Virus record (IMG/VR): IMGVR_UViG_3300017752_000161
Span: 1-24,122 of that record
Strand: one strand, 5' to 3'
Source of the DNA: a virus
DNA: 24,122 bases
A program made the position numbers and the translations under genes. Of this stretch, positions 191-15,230 are shown piece after piece. Within the stretch, counting starts at the first letter, position 1. Each line of letters opens with the position of its first letter. Below the pieces are notes generated by a model that saw nothing but the letters and a program-made list of their open reading frames with translations, ran no database searches and was not told where the DNA came from.

Positions 191-508
191 ATCGATCCCC
201 GAACCTTGGAACTTGAACGCAAAACCTCCGTCAAACAAAAGTACATCACCCTTCGAGGGGTCGTGTAACAAGAAAAAACTCACTCCATTACAGCGAGAAT
301 GCCCGAGATGCCACGCAATCTGTGACTTGTTAACCGTAACTCGGTTACTTTTAATTATTTTTAACTCGAGCCAGATCGGGACACCATCGAGGCACATATA
401 AACGTCCGGCATCCCTTCGCCAGCGCGGTTTTCAATCCGTTGGTAATGACTCTTTTTCGGTAACTTCTGCTTCAATGAGGTCGATAGTGCTTTCTCTGTC
501 TTTGGCAT
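83..508 (-). CDS. VRR-NUC-type PD-(D/E)XK nuclease
   Basis: 141-residue predicted nuclease. Residues 22-50 carry the VRR-NUC signature: Arg-Ile-Glu-Asn (E26), Gly-Met-Pro-Asp (D35) and Glu-Leu-Lys (E48, K50), which together form a metal-binding PD-(D/E)XK active site. A Gln in the following helix (Asn-Lys-Ser-Gln) also fits the family. Small stand-alone VRR-NUC proteins are common in phages, where Holliday-junction or flap cleavage is proposed but rarely shown. The ATG at 508 has an AAGG upstream; a TTG nine bases earlier is the alternative. The first 77 bases overlap the end of terS, and the nuclease motif begins early enough that the overlap must be real. The last 40 residues contain the repeated Val-Leu-Arg-Pro/Ala segments made by the CGCAGGA repeats, so the C-terminus looks expanded. 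The family call is firm; the substrate is unknown. Confidence 0.82.
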   Translation of the reverse strand: MPKTEKALSTSLKQKLPKKSHYQRIENRAGEGMPDVYMCLDGVPIWLELKIIKSNRVTVNKSQIAWHLGHSRCNGVSFFLLHDPSKGDVLLFDGGFAFKFQGSGIDVLRPAALYDGDLKGLPCVLRAKAIDAWLCVLRPAT

Positions 509-977
509 CTTTAACAACCTTCATATCATCTAGGCTTGGGTGCTGTTTTCTTATGTCTGCTAGTCGTGCGACAATCTCTTCACGCGACAGCTTGTCAAGC
601 TGGTGGACGTGCTGTTGCTCTCGCCTGTCGATAGTCAATCCACCCAAAGCGGATCGTATCTTCTCGGCGTTGATAGCGGCAGAGAATTGCCCTTCGGTCT
701 CAGCGTTGCGTGACAGTTCATCCAATCGCTTTAACTGTCCAAGCAGGGTGACACCATACTTGCGCTCTCGATCCTGTCGTAGTTCTTTTATCAACTCGAC
801 AACAAGCGGATATGACTTTCCGTTTAACAGCTTTGATGCGTGTTGTGCGGCAGAGTCTTCGGCATACCCAGCCAACCTCGCGCACTCTGCATTACTATGT
901 CTGCCATCGACATAGTATCTAGCAAATTCTCTTTGTCTGTTTGTCAGCCCAGATGGGCGTCCGGCAGGGTTAGGCAA
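432..977 (-). CDS. terS: Terminase small subunit
   Basis: 181-residue protein that in this family recognises phage DNA and recruits the large terminase to start packaging. The N-terminus (about residues 10-55) has the helix-turn-helix layout of Terminase_2-type small subunits: Leu-Thr-x-Arg-Gln-x-Glu-Phe-Ala-Arg-Tyr-Tyr, then Asn-Ala-x-x-Ala-Arg-x-Ala-Gly-Tyr, then a Ser-Ala-Ala-Gln-x-Ala-Ser-Lys-Leu-Leu helix. The middle is helical and suited to oligomer formation; the C-terminus is acidic. The start is a TTG at 977-975 preceded eight bases upstream by AGGAGA, a strong ribosome site with no good ATG nearby. It is the first gene of the leftward late unit and faces the divergent control region. 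The family assignment rests on overall pattern. Confidence 0.8.
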   Translation of the reverse strand: MPNPAGRPSGLTNRQREFARYYVDGRHSNAECARLAGYAEDSAAQHASKLLNGKSYPLVVELIKELRQDRERKYGVTLLGQLKRLDELSRNAETEGQFSAAINAEKIRSALGGLTIDRREQQHVHQLDKLSREEIVARLADIRKQHPSLDDMKVVKDAKDRESTIDLIEAEVTEKESLPTD

Positions 978-1059
978 AACAAAATCTCCTATAGGTTTTT
1001 CTGTGGGTTTTCATTTTCAAAAACAAAAAAGTGTTCGCGGTCTCATTTATGACCCTATG

Positions 1060-1139
1060 AAGTGTACCAAACGTAACCAAGTGTACCGAGAATAATGTAA
1101 TAAAAACAACACTGGTTACACTGGTTACACTGGTTACAC
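1060..1139. repeat. Two opposed triplet arrays of GTGTAMCC repeats
   Basis: Left array, on the + strand: GTGTACC at 1062-1068, CGTAACC at 1072-1078 and GTGTACC at 1081-1087, spaced 9-10 bases. Right array, on the - strand: GTGTAACC, read as GGTTACAC at 1114-1121, 1123-1130 and 1132-1139. The right array is a perfect 9-base tandem repeat (CTGGTTACA three times, 1112-1138). The arrays point at each other across an AT-rich spacer of 26 bases. The 9-10 base period places copies on about the same helix face, as expected for cooperative protein binding, either operator or iteron. No binding protein can be assigned. Confidence 0.7.
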
Positions 1140-1286
1140 CATATTTCAAAAATTTTTTATAAAAACTTTTTCCTGTAGAAAACACTATATGCACGTCACT
1201 TTCTTAAAAATAATCCTTGCATCTATGGGATAAGCTAGGATAGGGTATCTTATATCACAGTGTACCGCATGGGATTCACCGTAACA

Positions 1287-8064: not shown

Positions 8065-8208
8065 ATGGATAGCGCGAAATGGAAATCTATAGCTGTGTCT
8101 ATAGATATTTACACAATACTGCGTCAGTTGGCTGAGAAGAATGACCGAAGTGTCAGCAAGCAGGTGGCGCACATGGTTAAACAGATTGCAGGAAAAGAAG
8201 CTGCATAG
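8065..8208 (+). CDS. Ribbon-helix-helix (Arc/MetJ-type) DNA-binding protein
   Basis: 47-residue protein with the full ribbon-helix-helix pattern: a beta strand at residues 6-13 (Lys-Ser-Ile-Ala-Val-Ser-Ile-Asp), helix A at about 14-27 (Ile-Tyr-Thr-Ile-Leu-Arg-Gln-Leu-Ala-Glu-Lys) and helix B from Ser-Val-Ser-Lys-Gln to the end. Dimers of this fold insert the paired strand into the major groove and act as small repressors. ACAAGGAG lies upstream of the ATG. The perfect inverted repeat 14 bases after its stop is a plausible operator, and a promoter-like pair lies 5' of it. The fold is well supported; the targets are inference. Confidence 0.78.
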   Translation: MDSAKWKSIAVSIDIYTILRQLAEKNDRSVSKQVAHMVKQIAGKEAA

Positions 8209-9738: not shown

Positions 9739-9766
9739 TATACCTTTAGGCTAGATGGAGATATCA

Positions 9767-11296
9767 ATGGATCAAGCCACAAGGTTCATGGCGGCGTTTA
9801 ACGGCTTCGATGGCGCACATGGACAGACACAAATATCAGAAGAACGCAGAGCCGGGAAACAAAAAGCTAAGTCATTCATTGTAAGACAGCCTCTTACGAT
9901 TGAGTTAGTTCAAGGCCACCTTTCTGGGAAGAAGGGTGTTGGTTCTATACCTATTAAAGCAAACAACAAGTGTAGCTTCGGCGCACTGGACATTGATTTA
10001 TACCCACTGGATTTACCTGCTCTTGATCGTAGACTTCAAGACAATAAGGTTCCTGCCGTGGTGTGTCGGTCAAAGTCTGGCGGAGCGCACATACTTTTTT
10101 TCTTTTCAGAAGAGATCAGCGCTGGTGAGTTCAGGGATAAGGCCGGAGAAATATCCGCGTTCCTTGGGCACGGCGGCTGTGAGATATTCCCCAAGCAAGA
10201 GCAGATCCTAGTTGAGCGTGGTGATGTAGGTAACTTCATCAACCTGCCTTATTTTGACCAAGATCAGACAATGCGCTACGCCATAAAAGAAGATGGCGAG
10301 GAAGCTACGTTCGACGAGTTCCTTCAGATGGTGAAGGATCGAACCTGTACACCAGACGACTTTGTAAACCTGACGCTTGGCAAGAAGATCGATGAGTTTA
10401 ACGAGTGGCCACCCTGCATGCAGAGTCTATTCTCTGACGGTGTGCCAGAGGGCACACGTAACACCGTAATGTTTGGTACTTGCGTGGCTTGTAAGAAAGA
10501 GCAACCGGAAAACTGGAAGGCTCGTCTCGAAGAAATCAACACTAAACACGTTGACCCACCGCTTCCTGCTGCGGAAGTTGTGACAGTTCAGCAACAGCAT
10601 GACAAAAAAGAATATGGCTTTCCCTGCCAGCAGGAGCCGTTTAAGTCTCGTTGCAACAGAACACTGTGTAAGACCCGCAAGTATGGCATTGGCGGGGCAA
10701 GCGCAAGCGTTGACGTGACTGGCCTGTGCGTTGTGAAGTCGGAGCCGCCAGTCTGGTTCTGTGACGTTGATGGCAAACGTGTCGAACTGATTACAGAGGA
10801 ACTACAGACACCGCAAAAGTTTCAGAAAGCTTGTATGGAACAGATCCGCGTCATGCCACCTATGATGAAGATGGCCGACTGGCAGGATCTTGTTTCAATG
10901 ATGATGGCTGATATGAGTGAGATCGAGGTTCCGGAAGAACTTACATACAAAGGTCAGTTCTTGGATCTGGTTGAAGATTACTGTGGTGGCAGGGTGCAAG
11001 CGGCTAGCATAGAAGAACTGTCATTGGGTAAGCCGTGGACAGAGGATGGCCTGACTTTCTTCCGCATCGAGTCTTTGATTAAATTCCTACGTAATGCAAA
11101 GTTTGACACATACAGCAGGGGGCAGATACAGGAACGTCTGAAAGAAATGAACCCTGATGGAAGGGCAAACGGGGTTAAAAAATTTAAAGATTCAAAGGGT
11201 CAGTGGAAGACCATACGTGTGTGGCACGTCCCTGAATTTAAGGGTCAGGTTGATGTGCCTGACGTTTACATAGAAGATAACGAGGTGCCGTTCTAA
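9767..11296 (+). CDS. Archaeo-eukaryotic-type DNA primase
   Basis: 509-residue primase that makes primers for phage replication. Residues about 50-160 form an AEP catalytic domain: Ala-Leu-Asp-Ile-Asp with metal ligands D75 and D77, the Gly-Ala-His motif (H108) in Ser-Gly-Gly-Ala-His-Ile-Leu-Phe-Phe-Phe, then Glu-Ile-Phe-Pro-Lys-Gln and Gly-Asn-Phe-Ile-Asn-Leu-Pro-Tyr. This layout is close to AEP domains of the TOTE type. Around residues 243-302 come Cys-Val-Ala-Cys-Lys-Lys and a four-part Cys pattern (Pro-Cys-x-x-Glu-Pro, Arg-Cys-Asn-x-x-Leu-Cys-Lys-x-Arg) that may bind zinc. The protein ends Glu-Asp-Asn-Glu-Val-Pro-Phe, an SSB-like tip. GGAG lies six bases upstream of the ATG at 9767; an ATG at 9755 is the alternative. 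No helicase domain is fused. Confidence 0.88.
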   Translation: MDQATRFMAAFNGFDGAHGQTQISEERRAGKQKAKSFIVRQPLTIELVQGHLSGKKGVGSIPIKANNKCSFGALDIDLYPLDLPALDRRLQDNKVPAVVCRSKSGGAHILFFFSEEISAGEFRDKAGEISAFLGHGGCEIFPKQEQILVERGDVGNFINLPYFDQDQTMRYAIKEDGEEATFDEFLQMVKDRTCTPDDFVNLTLGKKIDEFNEWPPCMQSLFSDGVPEGTRNTVMFGTCVACKKEQPENWKARLEEINTKHVDPPLPAAEVVTVQQQHDKKEYGFPCQQEPFKSRCNRTLCKTRKYGIGGASASVDVTGLCVVKSEPPVWFCDVDGKRVELITEELQTPQKFQKACMEQIRVMPPMMKMADWQDLVSMMMADMSEIEVPEELTYKGQFLDLVEDYCGGRVQAASIEELSLGKPWTEDGLTFFRIESLIKFLRNAKFDTYSRGQIQERLKEMNPDGRANGVKKFKDSKGQWKTIRVWHVPEFKGQVDVPDVYIEDNEVPF

Positions 11297-12991: not shown

Positions 12992-13266
12992 AACGAGCAG
13001 AGATACTAGAGACAGCTATTGGTTACGTCACGCAAGACAGGGCGGCGGATCACGGTGATATGGAAGACAACTTTGCTACTATCGCTGCGTACTGGACTAT
13101 ACATTTGGGTCACCCTGTAACCGCCGCTGATGTAGGTGTGATGATGAACCTGTTAAAAGTTGCTCGTATCAAAAGCAATGCAGGTCACATAGACAATTAT
13201 GTAGATGGTAGCGGCTACTTGGCTTGCGCTGGTGAAATTGTATCGAAGCCCGAAAGCAATGCATAA
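12988..13266 (+). CDS. DUF6378-like phage protein
   Basis: 92-residue protein matching my memory of the DUF6378 pattern: Arg-x-x-Asp-His-Gly-Asp-Met-Glu-Asp-Asn-Phe, then Ile-Ala-Ala-Tyr-Trp, Asp-Val-Gly-Val-Met-Met-Asn-Leu-Leu-Lys-Val-Ala-Arg and His-Ile-Asp-Asn-Tyr-Val-Asp-Gly-Ser-Gly-Tyr. The spaced His, Asp and Glu residues resemble helical metal-dependent nucleotide hydrolases, but activity is not established to my knowledge. It is placed between helicase and polymerase and coupled to both (ATGA with the helicase, TAATG with the polymerase). I chose the ATG at 12988 over 12970. Confidence 0.7.
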   Translation: MKRAEILETAIGYVTQDRAADHGDMEDNFATIAAYWTIHLGHPVTAADVGVMMNLLKVARIKSNAGHIDNYVDGSGYLACAGEIVSKPESNA

Positions 13267-15230
13267 TGAGCCATCAGTACAATTTTATAGATCATCCCGA
13301 TCATCGAGAGGAGTATCCGAAGATGAAGGATAAGAACGACGTAGCAGATGCGGAAGAGATGAAAGAATACTCTATCGCTGGTGTTCGAGAAGACTGGTCT
13401 CCGCCTCAGTCATTCCCTGATTTAACGGCGTACTCTCGCATAGCAATTGACTTGGAAACGCGAGACCCGAATCTAATGCGGTTAGGTCCCGGCTGGTGCC
13501 GAGATGACGGATACGTCATTGGCTACGCCGTGGCGGCTGGTGACTTCATAGGCTACTACCCTGTTAGACATGAGGGTGGTGGCAACTTCCCTGAGTCTAA
13601 GGTTGTCAACTGGCTGAAGAAACAGATGGCTACACCCAAGATCGAAAAGGTTATGCACAATGCAATGTATGATCTTGGCTGGATGCGCTGGGCAGGAATC
13701 GAGGTTCAAGGACCGATTATCGACACTATGATAGCCGCCCCACTTCTGAACGAGAATCGTAGGTACTACAACCTAAACTCATTGGCTGGCGAATATCTTG
13801 GCGAGTACAAAAACGAGCGGCTGTTGAAACAGGCAGCGGACTACTTCGGCGTCAATCCTAAGTCAGAGATGTGGAAGATGCCTTGTAACTTTGTCGGTCC
13901 GTATGCCGAGCAGGATGCAGCGGTAACCTTGAAGCTTTGGGACAGGCTACGTCAAGACATGGTAGCTGATAAGGTCACTGGAATCTTCGACCTTGAATCT
14001 GGGTTACTTCGTCCCCTGTTAGACATGCGTACCAACGGTGTGCGTGTTGATGTGGACAAAGCGCAAGTCGCCCGTAAGGAATTAAAGAAACGCGAGACTC
14101 AGCTACTTGAGGAAATTAAAGGGGAAACAGGGCACTACATTGAGCCGTGGGTCGCCACATCTATAGCAAAGGCGTTCGATTCCGTTGGGTTGCCGTACAA
14201 TAGGACAGAGGGCACGAATGCGCCTTCCTTTACAAAACAGTTTCTTTCTAACCACCATCACCCACTGGCGGCAAAGATAGTAAAGCTTCGTGAATTTAAC
14301 AAAGCCAACACAACATTTATTGAAACCATTCTTGAGCATTCGCATAAGGGTCGTATCCATTGTGAATTTAATCCTCTTCGTTCAGATGATGGCGGTACTG
14401 TGACGGGTCGTTTTTCATCGAGCAACCCGAACCTGCAACAGATCCCTGCCCGTGATCCAGAATTAAAGGCTATGATCCGTGGGTTGTTTATACCAGAGGA
14501 AGGTTGCAAGTGGGGGTCGTTTGACTACGCCTCACAGGAGCCTCGCTGGCTGGCACATTACTGCGCCAGTATAAAGAATCCGCATCCAGCAATCAACGAG
14601 GTTGTTGAACTGTACAAGAACGATGATGCAGACTTTCACCAGATGGTAGCAGATCTTGCAGGCATTACTCGTAAGGAAGCCAAGACTGTTAACCTTGGTA
14701 TCATGTACGGCATGGGCAGGAAGAAACTTGCTGGTGTCATGGACATAACCGAGGAAGAAGCAAAGGTACTACTTGCCAACTACCATGAGAAGGTTCCGTT
14801 CGTTAAGGGCATTGCTGACATGGCTGCGAAACAAGCAGAGAAGTTCGGTCACATCCGCACTATGCTTGGTCGCAAGTGCCGCTTTGATCTATGGGAACCT
14901 AAGTCATATGGATACACCAAGCCACTGCCACTAGAAGCGGCGGCAAAGGAATACGGTGGTGTGGGCAGGATTCGCCCAGCCTTTACATACAAGGCGTTGA
15001 ACAAGCTGATCCAAGGTTCGAGTGCTGACCAGACAAAGAAGGCGATGGTCGATTGCTACGCCGAGGGACTGCTACCGATGCTAACAGTGCATGATGAACT
15101 GTGTTTCAATGTCGAAGATCCGGGGCAAGCCGAACGGATTGTCGAGATCATGGAGACATGTGTCCCTGATCTGAAGGTTCCGTTCAAGGTCGATGCAGAA
15201 ATGGGCGACAACTGGGGTGAGGTCGGATAA
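13266..15230 (+). CDS. Family A DNA polymerase with 3'-5' exonuclease
   Basis: 654-residue replicative polymerase. The proofreading domain is intact: Exo I Asp-Leu-Glu (D62, E64), Exo II Asn-Ala-Met-Tyr-Asp (D136) and Exo III Tyr-x-x-x-Asp (Y213, D217). There is no 5'-3' exonuclease domain. The polymerase domain has motif A in Gly-Ser-Phe-Asp-Tyr-Ala-Ser-Gln-Glu, motif B Arg469-x3-Lys473-x3-Leu477-x3-Tyr481, and motif C Val-His-Asp-Glu at 608-611. Leu477 takes the place of E. coli Pol I Phe762. Start: 13266 overlaps the upstream stop (TAATG). An ATG at 13323 with AGAGGAG nine bases upstream is a good alternative that removes 19 residues outside any motif. It is the last gene of the rightward block. 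Confidence 0.95.
   Translation: MSHQYNFIDHPDHREEYPKMKDKNDVADAEEMKEYSIAGVREDWSPPQSFPDLTAYSRIAIDLETRDPNLMRLGPGWCRDDGYVIGYAVAAGDFIGYYPVRHEGGGNFPESKVVNWLKKQMATPKIEKVMHNAMYDLGWMRWAGIEVQGPIIDTMIAAPLLNENRRYYNLNSLAGEYLGEYKNERLLKQAADYFGVNPKSEMWKMPCNFVGPYAEQDAAVTLKLWDRLRQDMVADKVTGIFDLESGLLRPLLDMRTNGVRVDVDKAQVARKELKKRETQLLEEIKGETGHYIEPWVATSIAKAFDSVGLPYNRTEGTNAPSFTKQFLSNHHHPLAAKIVKLREFNKANTTFIETILEHSHKGRIHCEFNPLRSDDGGTVTGRFSSSNPNLQQIPARDPELKAMIRGLFIPEEGCKWGSFDYASQEPRWLAHYCASIKNPHPAINEVVELYKNDDADFHQMVADLAGITRKEAKTVNLGIMYGMGRKKLAGVMDITEEEAKVLLANYHEKVPFVKGIADMAAKQAEKFGHIRTMLGRKCRFDLWEPKSYGYTKPLPLEAAAKEYGGVGRIRPAFTYKALNKLIQGSSADQTKKAMVDCYAEGLLPMLTVHDELCFNVEDPGQAERIVEIMETCVPDLKVPFKVDAEMGDNWGEVG

Follow-up and report, generated by a model that had tools for sequence, protein, structure and literature searches.

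Facing iteron arrays that co-vary with the wing of a phage primase mark a probable replication origin in marine phages

What is the role of two facing sets of short repeats in the gap between terS and the first early gene of a marine phage? We addressed this question in the 24,122-base virus record IMGVR_UViG_3300017752_000161 (positions 1 to 24,122), referred to here as the window. The window is a fragment of a tailed marine phage whose distant kin are the pelagiphages HTVC023P and HTVC027P, 023Pt_psg01, and DSL-LC04.

Two facing arrays in the gap beside terS

The arrays sit between terS on the minus strand and the first early gene (1362-1736) on the plus strand. The features of this region are as follows.

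432-977, minus strand: terS (Terminase_2, phrog_51), the neighbour used to locate the element
985-1003, minus strand: left flanking motif CAGAAAAACCTATAGG, mirror of the right flank
1062-1087, plus strand: left iteron array, with GTGTACC (1062-1068), CGTAACC (1072-1078) and GTGTACC (1081-1087)
1089-1112, no strand: A+T-rich spacer between the arrays, 24 bp, 79% A+T by count
1114-1139, minus strand: right iteron array, a perfect triplet of 9-bp repeats (1114, 1123, 1132) that read GTGTAACCA on this strand
1141-1175, no strand: A/T tract adjoining the right array, candidate DNA unwinding element
1172-1190, plus strand: right flanking motif CCTGTAGAAAACACTATAT, read from the sequence
1217-1246, plus strand: likely early promoter TTGCAT-18-TAGGGT, read from the sequence, with comparable hexamers at the same place in relatives

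The top-strand unit of the right array is GGTTACAC, repeated exactly with a period of 9. A scan of the window found this array to be the sole run with at least 17 matches at a lag of 8 to 10, and none of 200 dinucleotide shuffles of the window produced a run as long. The left array is imperfect. The original prediction described three forward copies of GTGTA(A/C)CC facing three reverse copies. The reverse copies are indeed exact at their three positions, but the forward copies are off-motif (GTGTACC and CGTAACC), and 0 of 3 match GTGTAMCC. Because GTGTAMCC has no forward-strand match anywhere in the window, the motif is inexact for the left array. Exact GGTTACAC triplets in other viral contigs were mostly collagen-like coding repeats, the exceptions being L035/L037 and L041.

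As in an iteron-type origin, three plus three short direct repeats lie in a region without an assigned gene, and an A/T-rich region (86% A+T at 1141-1175) lies beside them. GC skew was uninformative and gave no pointer to an origin.

The likely promoter lies outside the arrays. A GTACC series (1262, 1288, 1316) that had been noted along with the arrays is present, within the early gene's 5' leader. Because it is nearly unchanged in relatives with altered arrays, we place it outside the element. T7-like phage promoters were considered and rejected: the flanks resemble ...CACTATAG, yet a Pfam search found no single-subunit RNA polymerase in five related contigs. The same search found none in control genomes either, and therefore it does not establish that the polymerase is absent.

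Three other variable or repetitive stretches were seen in the window. Left of the arrays, positions 1030-1055 form a second variable block with two or three alleles (beginning GTGTTCGCGGTCTCA or GCATGCGCGAACGTA), and close relatives carry these alleles in shuffled combinations that do not follow their arrays. Near the left end, positions 30-200 hold a repeated GCAGGACGCAGG-type sequence, partly within a VRR-NUC-like reading frame. A 90-aa early gene (1926-2198) is missing in the otherwise very similar L002 phage.

Conserved architecture and replaced units

A terS search yielded 24 clear relatives, and the upstream region was present in 23. All 23 carry two facing arrays upstream of terS, with position and orientation kept. 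The unit itself reads GTGTAACGA in L002, GTGGAACGA in L003, GTGGGATGA in L006, GTGTTACGA in L007 and GTGTCTTAA in L022, and its replacement is concerted within each genome. Among the six closest phages the flanks are nearly identical and the arrays are swapped; the 1089-1112 spacer is largely kept in the five closest relatives. Units differ even between phages with identical TerS. A/T tracts also come after the arrays in the relatives inspected, and CTATAG-type flanks stand at both ends of the element. The original prediction had named relatives lacking GTGTAMCC in this gap as evidence against it, and to the letter several such relatives exist (L003, L006, L020 and L022, among others). However, they keep the same arrays with other units. 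Therefore, the GTGTAMCC motif is strain-specific and the architecture is conserved.

A search with the distant L037 terS returned at least 600 stretches, and this second, abundant group (group 2) was judged from sampled members. These bear a six-unit form of the element, again upstream of terS. Read in a common orientation, all units of such an element usually share the centre base of their core.

Arrays of this kind were also seen in more distant phages. At L134 3690-3800 (023Pt_psg01, about 13690-13800), TGGCACACT arrays face each other, with A/T tracts and CACTATA after them, and the array site in this named, complete phage genome is, from its sequence, a candidate origin. Similar opposed arrays with other units occur at L442 20990-21120, L451 10500-10650 and L458 1330-1420. 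Like the arrays of 023Pt_psg01, these lie near distant primase relatives, and the L442, L451 and L458 contigs are filed under several bacterial groups. A generic search found no clear arrays in HTVC023P and DSL-LC04.

Co-variation of the iterons with the primase

To find the protein that follows the repeat, we compared protein columns with array units. In a first scan of 13 long contigs, the larger conserved proteins contained one perfectly separating column, in the C terminus of the primase; three small proteins with few taxa each also had perfectly separating columns. The main dataset comprised 43 distinct array-primase pairs out of 61 contigs. Core labels were assigned by hand, and the mixed-array group-2 genomes L329 and L335 were excluded from the scan. 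It covered about 1700 (group 1) and 1586 (group 2) variable columns in 10 conserved proteins. The VRR-NUC protein, the ribbon-helix-helix (RHH) protein, the polymerase, the helicases and the first early gene were rejected or not supported as readers. The relevant parts of the primase gene are as follows.

9755-11296, plus strand: AEP-family primase, proposed origin-binding protein (AEP-TOTE PF22548, fold match, co-variation)
10913-11245, plus strand: predicted winged-helix domain at the primase C terminus, residues 387-497 approximately (AlphaFold2 models, VIA-align)
11162-11164, plus strand: residue 470 in the predicted turn before the wing strand, which also changes (co-variation, model)
11174-11182, plus strand: codons 474 (Val) and 476 (Lys), putative specificity residues on the predicted first wing strand (co-variation, model)

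In group 1, primase residue 474 ranked top, with a normalised MI of 0.81 against 0.57 for the next column. This residue is the X of an NG-X-K motif. V or H goes with the core GTTAC, L with GTAAC, Q with GTATC, K with RAGAC, R with GTTCC and F with GTCAC. The single exception is L192, which pairs Q with GTAAC. In group 2, the column aligned to 476 ranked first and matched the first core base perfectly (K-G, R-T, A-A). For the centre base, the 474-aligned column came second, with V or A for T and L, Q or T for A, so that several residues (L, Q, T) share GTAAC; a VRR-NUC column with only 10 taxa outscored it.

Primase trees were built without the last 110 residues. On these trees, core, residue and joint changes numbered 11, 11 and 12 in group 1. 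The corresponding counts in group 2 were 6, 6 and 6 for the first core base and 5, 8 and 8 for the centre base. None of 2000 shuffles was equally concordant, where the shuffles ignore relatedness and the trees address it only partly. Close pairs show the same switch. The window and L002 have about 97% identity where their early regions overlap, and 5 of the 513 primase residues are different, 470 and 476 among them. L247 and L257 are 92-94% identical over 14 kb, yet both array and residue have switched.

The primase matches PF22548 (E 1.6e-14, 54.5 bits, cut-off 27) and thus has a catalytic AEP domain; its fold matches CAPP Prim-Pol (E 5e-10). AlphaFold2 predicts C-terminal helices and wing strands, with 474 and 476 alternating on the first wing strand (472-478). 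The co-varying residues fall on this predicted strand. The best VIA-align match of the winged helix was TcpK of pCW3 (5vfy, Z 7.0), and further matches include SCCmec Cch (Z 6.3) and SaPIbov1 Rep (Z 5.2); these scores are below 8, may reflect nothing beyond a common arrangement of the fold, and are not proof of kinship. Together with the co-variation, the model and the TcpK analogy suggest that the primase wing may lie in the major groove, in the TcpK mode.

A probable origin and its known counterparts

We suggest, with a probability of about 0.8, that positions 985-1190 are the replication origin of the phage, and that its iterons are bound by the winged-helix C terminus of the phage's own AEP primase. 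The co-variation would match the iterons to the genome's own initiator. In this scenario, the first wing strand would read the iteron bases through residues 474 and 476, assisted by 470. Occupation of the two opposed 9-bp arrays beside the A/T-rich tract would melt the DNA, and melting and the opposed arrays would together place the primase on both strands. The primers could then be extended, with the phage helicases, by the following protein, a possible role drawn from the ColE2 analogy.

13266-15230, plus strand: phage DNA polymerase A (PF00476, E 1.6e-61), possible extender of origin primers

The analysis shows the arrays, their conservation and their co-variation with the primase wing; that the primase physically binds, melts and primes at the arrays, and that the region acts as an origin, we infer. 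The iteron-type origin put forward as one of two readings in the original prediction is thus well supported, though indirectly, because the repeats co-vary with the putative DNA-binding wing of the phage primase.

Alternatively, the primase might bind the arrays as a decoy or to regulate its own operon. Function does not follow from co-variation alone, and the primase gene lies about 8.6 kb away from the arrays, which are close to the early promoter-like site. However, the protein is a primase, the opposed iterons adjoin an A/T tract, and such domains on AEP primases are known or proposed to bind origins (PMC5862659, PMC4538821). We therefore regard this reading as unlikely.

If the small terminase recognised the arrays as a packaging site (pac or cos), the position of the element directly upstream of terS in both groups would be accounted for, and TerS is a DNA-binding protein. 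The P1 pac site consists of repeated hexamers. In a site of the P1 type the small terminase would read the repeats, but here TerS does not track the repeats. The window and L002 have an identical TerS, and from the window through L002 to L007 the helix-turn-helix part stays identical despite five unit alleles. No TerS column was among the top associations in the co-variation scans, and the array of 023Pt_psg01 does not adjoin terS. TerS was rejected as the reader because it fails to follow the repeat changes, which makes a packaging site highly improbable.

The same kind of evidence bears on the other reading in the original prediction, an early/late switch with one array per direction. The arrays could be operators of such a switch, for example for the RHH protein at 8065-8208, since they sit between the divergent terS and early transcription units and the RHH protein is present in 17 of 18 array-bearing contigs. 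RHH operators should match the reading strand of the protein. That strand is highly conserved, being the same in the window and L002 and in group-2 phages with differing units, and no RHH column tracks the unit. Because neither the neighbouring genes nor the RHH regulator follow the repeat sequence, the switch found no support, and we give it very little credence. In the L002 phage the RHH gene (L046/G001, about 45419-45560) is frameshifted against the window copy by an inserted base, which may be a sequencing error.

Finally, the arrays are mutually complementary with strong folding by secondary-structure prediction, and some left and right units in group 2 have flanking bases in common, but a role solely as a hairpin or cruciform of free sequence, with copies homogenised by template switching, is scarcely credible: the outer pairs of the fold are disrupted in L006 and L007, and free sequence is not expected to track the residues of a protein whose gene is about 9 kb distant. 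On the group-2 alignment, RNAalifold returned no structure.

We return to the primase-bound origin. Tentatively, antagonists that attack origins or take advantage of them, such as co-infecting phages, satellites or origin-directed nucleases, may drive a rapid diversification of the primase-origin pairing into many specificities that are incompatible with one another, and the beta-wing may follow a simple code, with one or two bases set by one or two residues. We consider this conceivable rather than probable. The natural variants do suggest strong diversifying pressure on origin recognition in these phages. To our knowledge, the origins of most tailed phages are unmapped, and the element would allow an origin to be placed from sequence in an abundant marine phage group. 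The paired variants, spread across dozens of viruses, are also material for working out a winged-helix DNA-recognition code.

Parts of the proposed system have precedents. TcpK, a winged-helix protein, places its beta-wing in the major groove to read the tandem 9-nt boxes of the pCW3 oriT (PMC6137059). The phage shares the 9-nt tandem repeats, and both the winged helix and the reading by its wing are predicted; TcpK, in contrast, is a separate small dimer without a catalytic domain and serves conjugation. SCCmec Cch and SaPIbov1 Rep are mobile-element initiators, and the C-terminal region of SaPI Rep binds iterons (PMC7581432). The C-terminal regions of both resemble the phage winged helix with middling strength, but these proteins are helicases, not primases.

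In PLE, the RepA_N domain co-varies with the ori iterons, and the origin-directed nuclease Odn of ICP1 selects changed iterons (PMC8263062). The likeness is an initiator DNA-binding domain that co-varies with origin iterons. However, PLE RepA is not a primase, and it has few alleles and domain swaps where the phage has many single-residue switches. Odn is a known antagonist for PLE; none is known for this phage. ORF904 of pRN1 is an AEP primase that carries a winged helix at its C terminus, and its putative origin is conserved in structure, not sequence (PMC4234260), as in the phage. It differs in having a fused helicase and one large stem-loop without iterons.

RSF1010 RepB' is likewise an AEP primase with two recognition sites, ssiA and ssiB, at the origin. 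These sites are oppositely oriented. RepB' reads the single-stranded ssi sites via its catalytic core, and separate proteins initiate and unwind (PMC4538821), whereas the phage co-variation maps to the C-terminal winged helix. Origin-binding winged helices on AEP primases were proposed earlier (PMC5862659). ColE2 Rep is an origin-specific AEP primase that makes the first primer, which DNA polymerase I extends (PMC4538821). The phage would resemble it in using an AEP primase at its own origin, and it encodes a polymerase A. The phage, a tailed one of lytic type, differs in that its proposed sites are 9-bp iterons set out as two opposed arrays. What appears to be new is a probable origin of a tailed phage that has its iterons in two facing arrays, probably read by a primase wing, and that is represented by many natural allele pairs.
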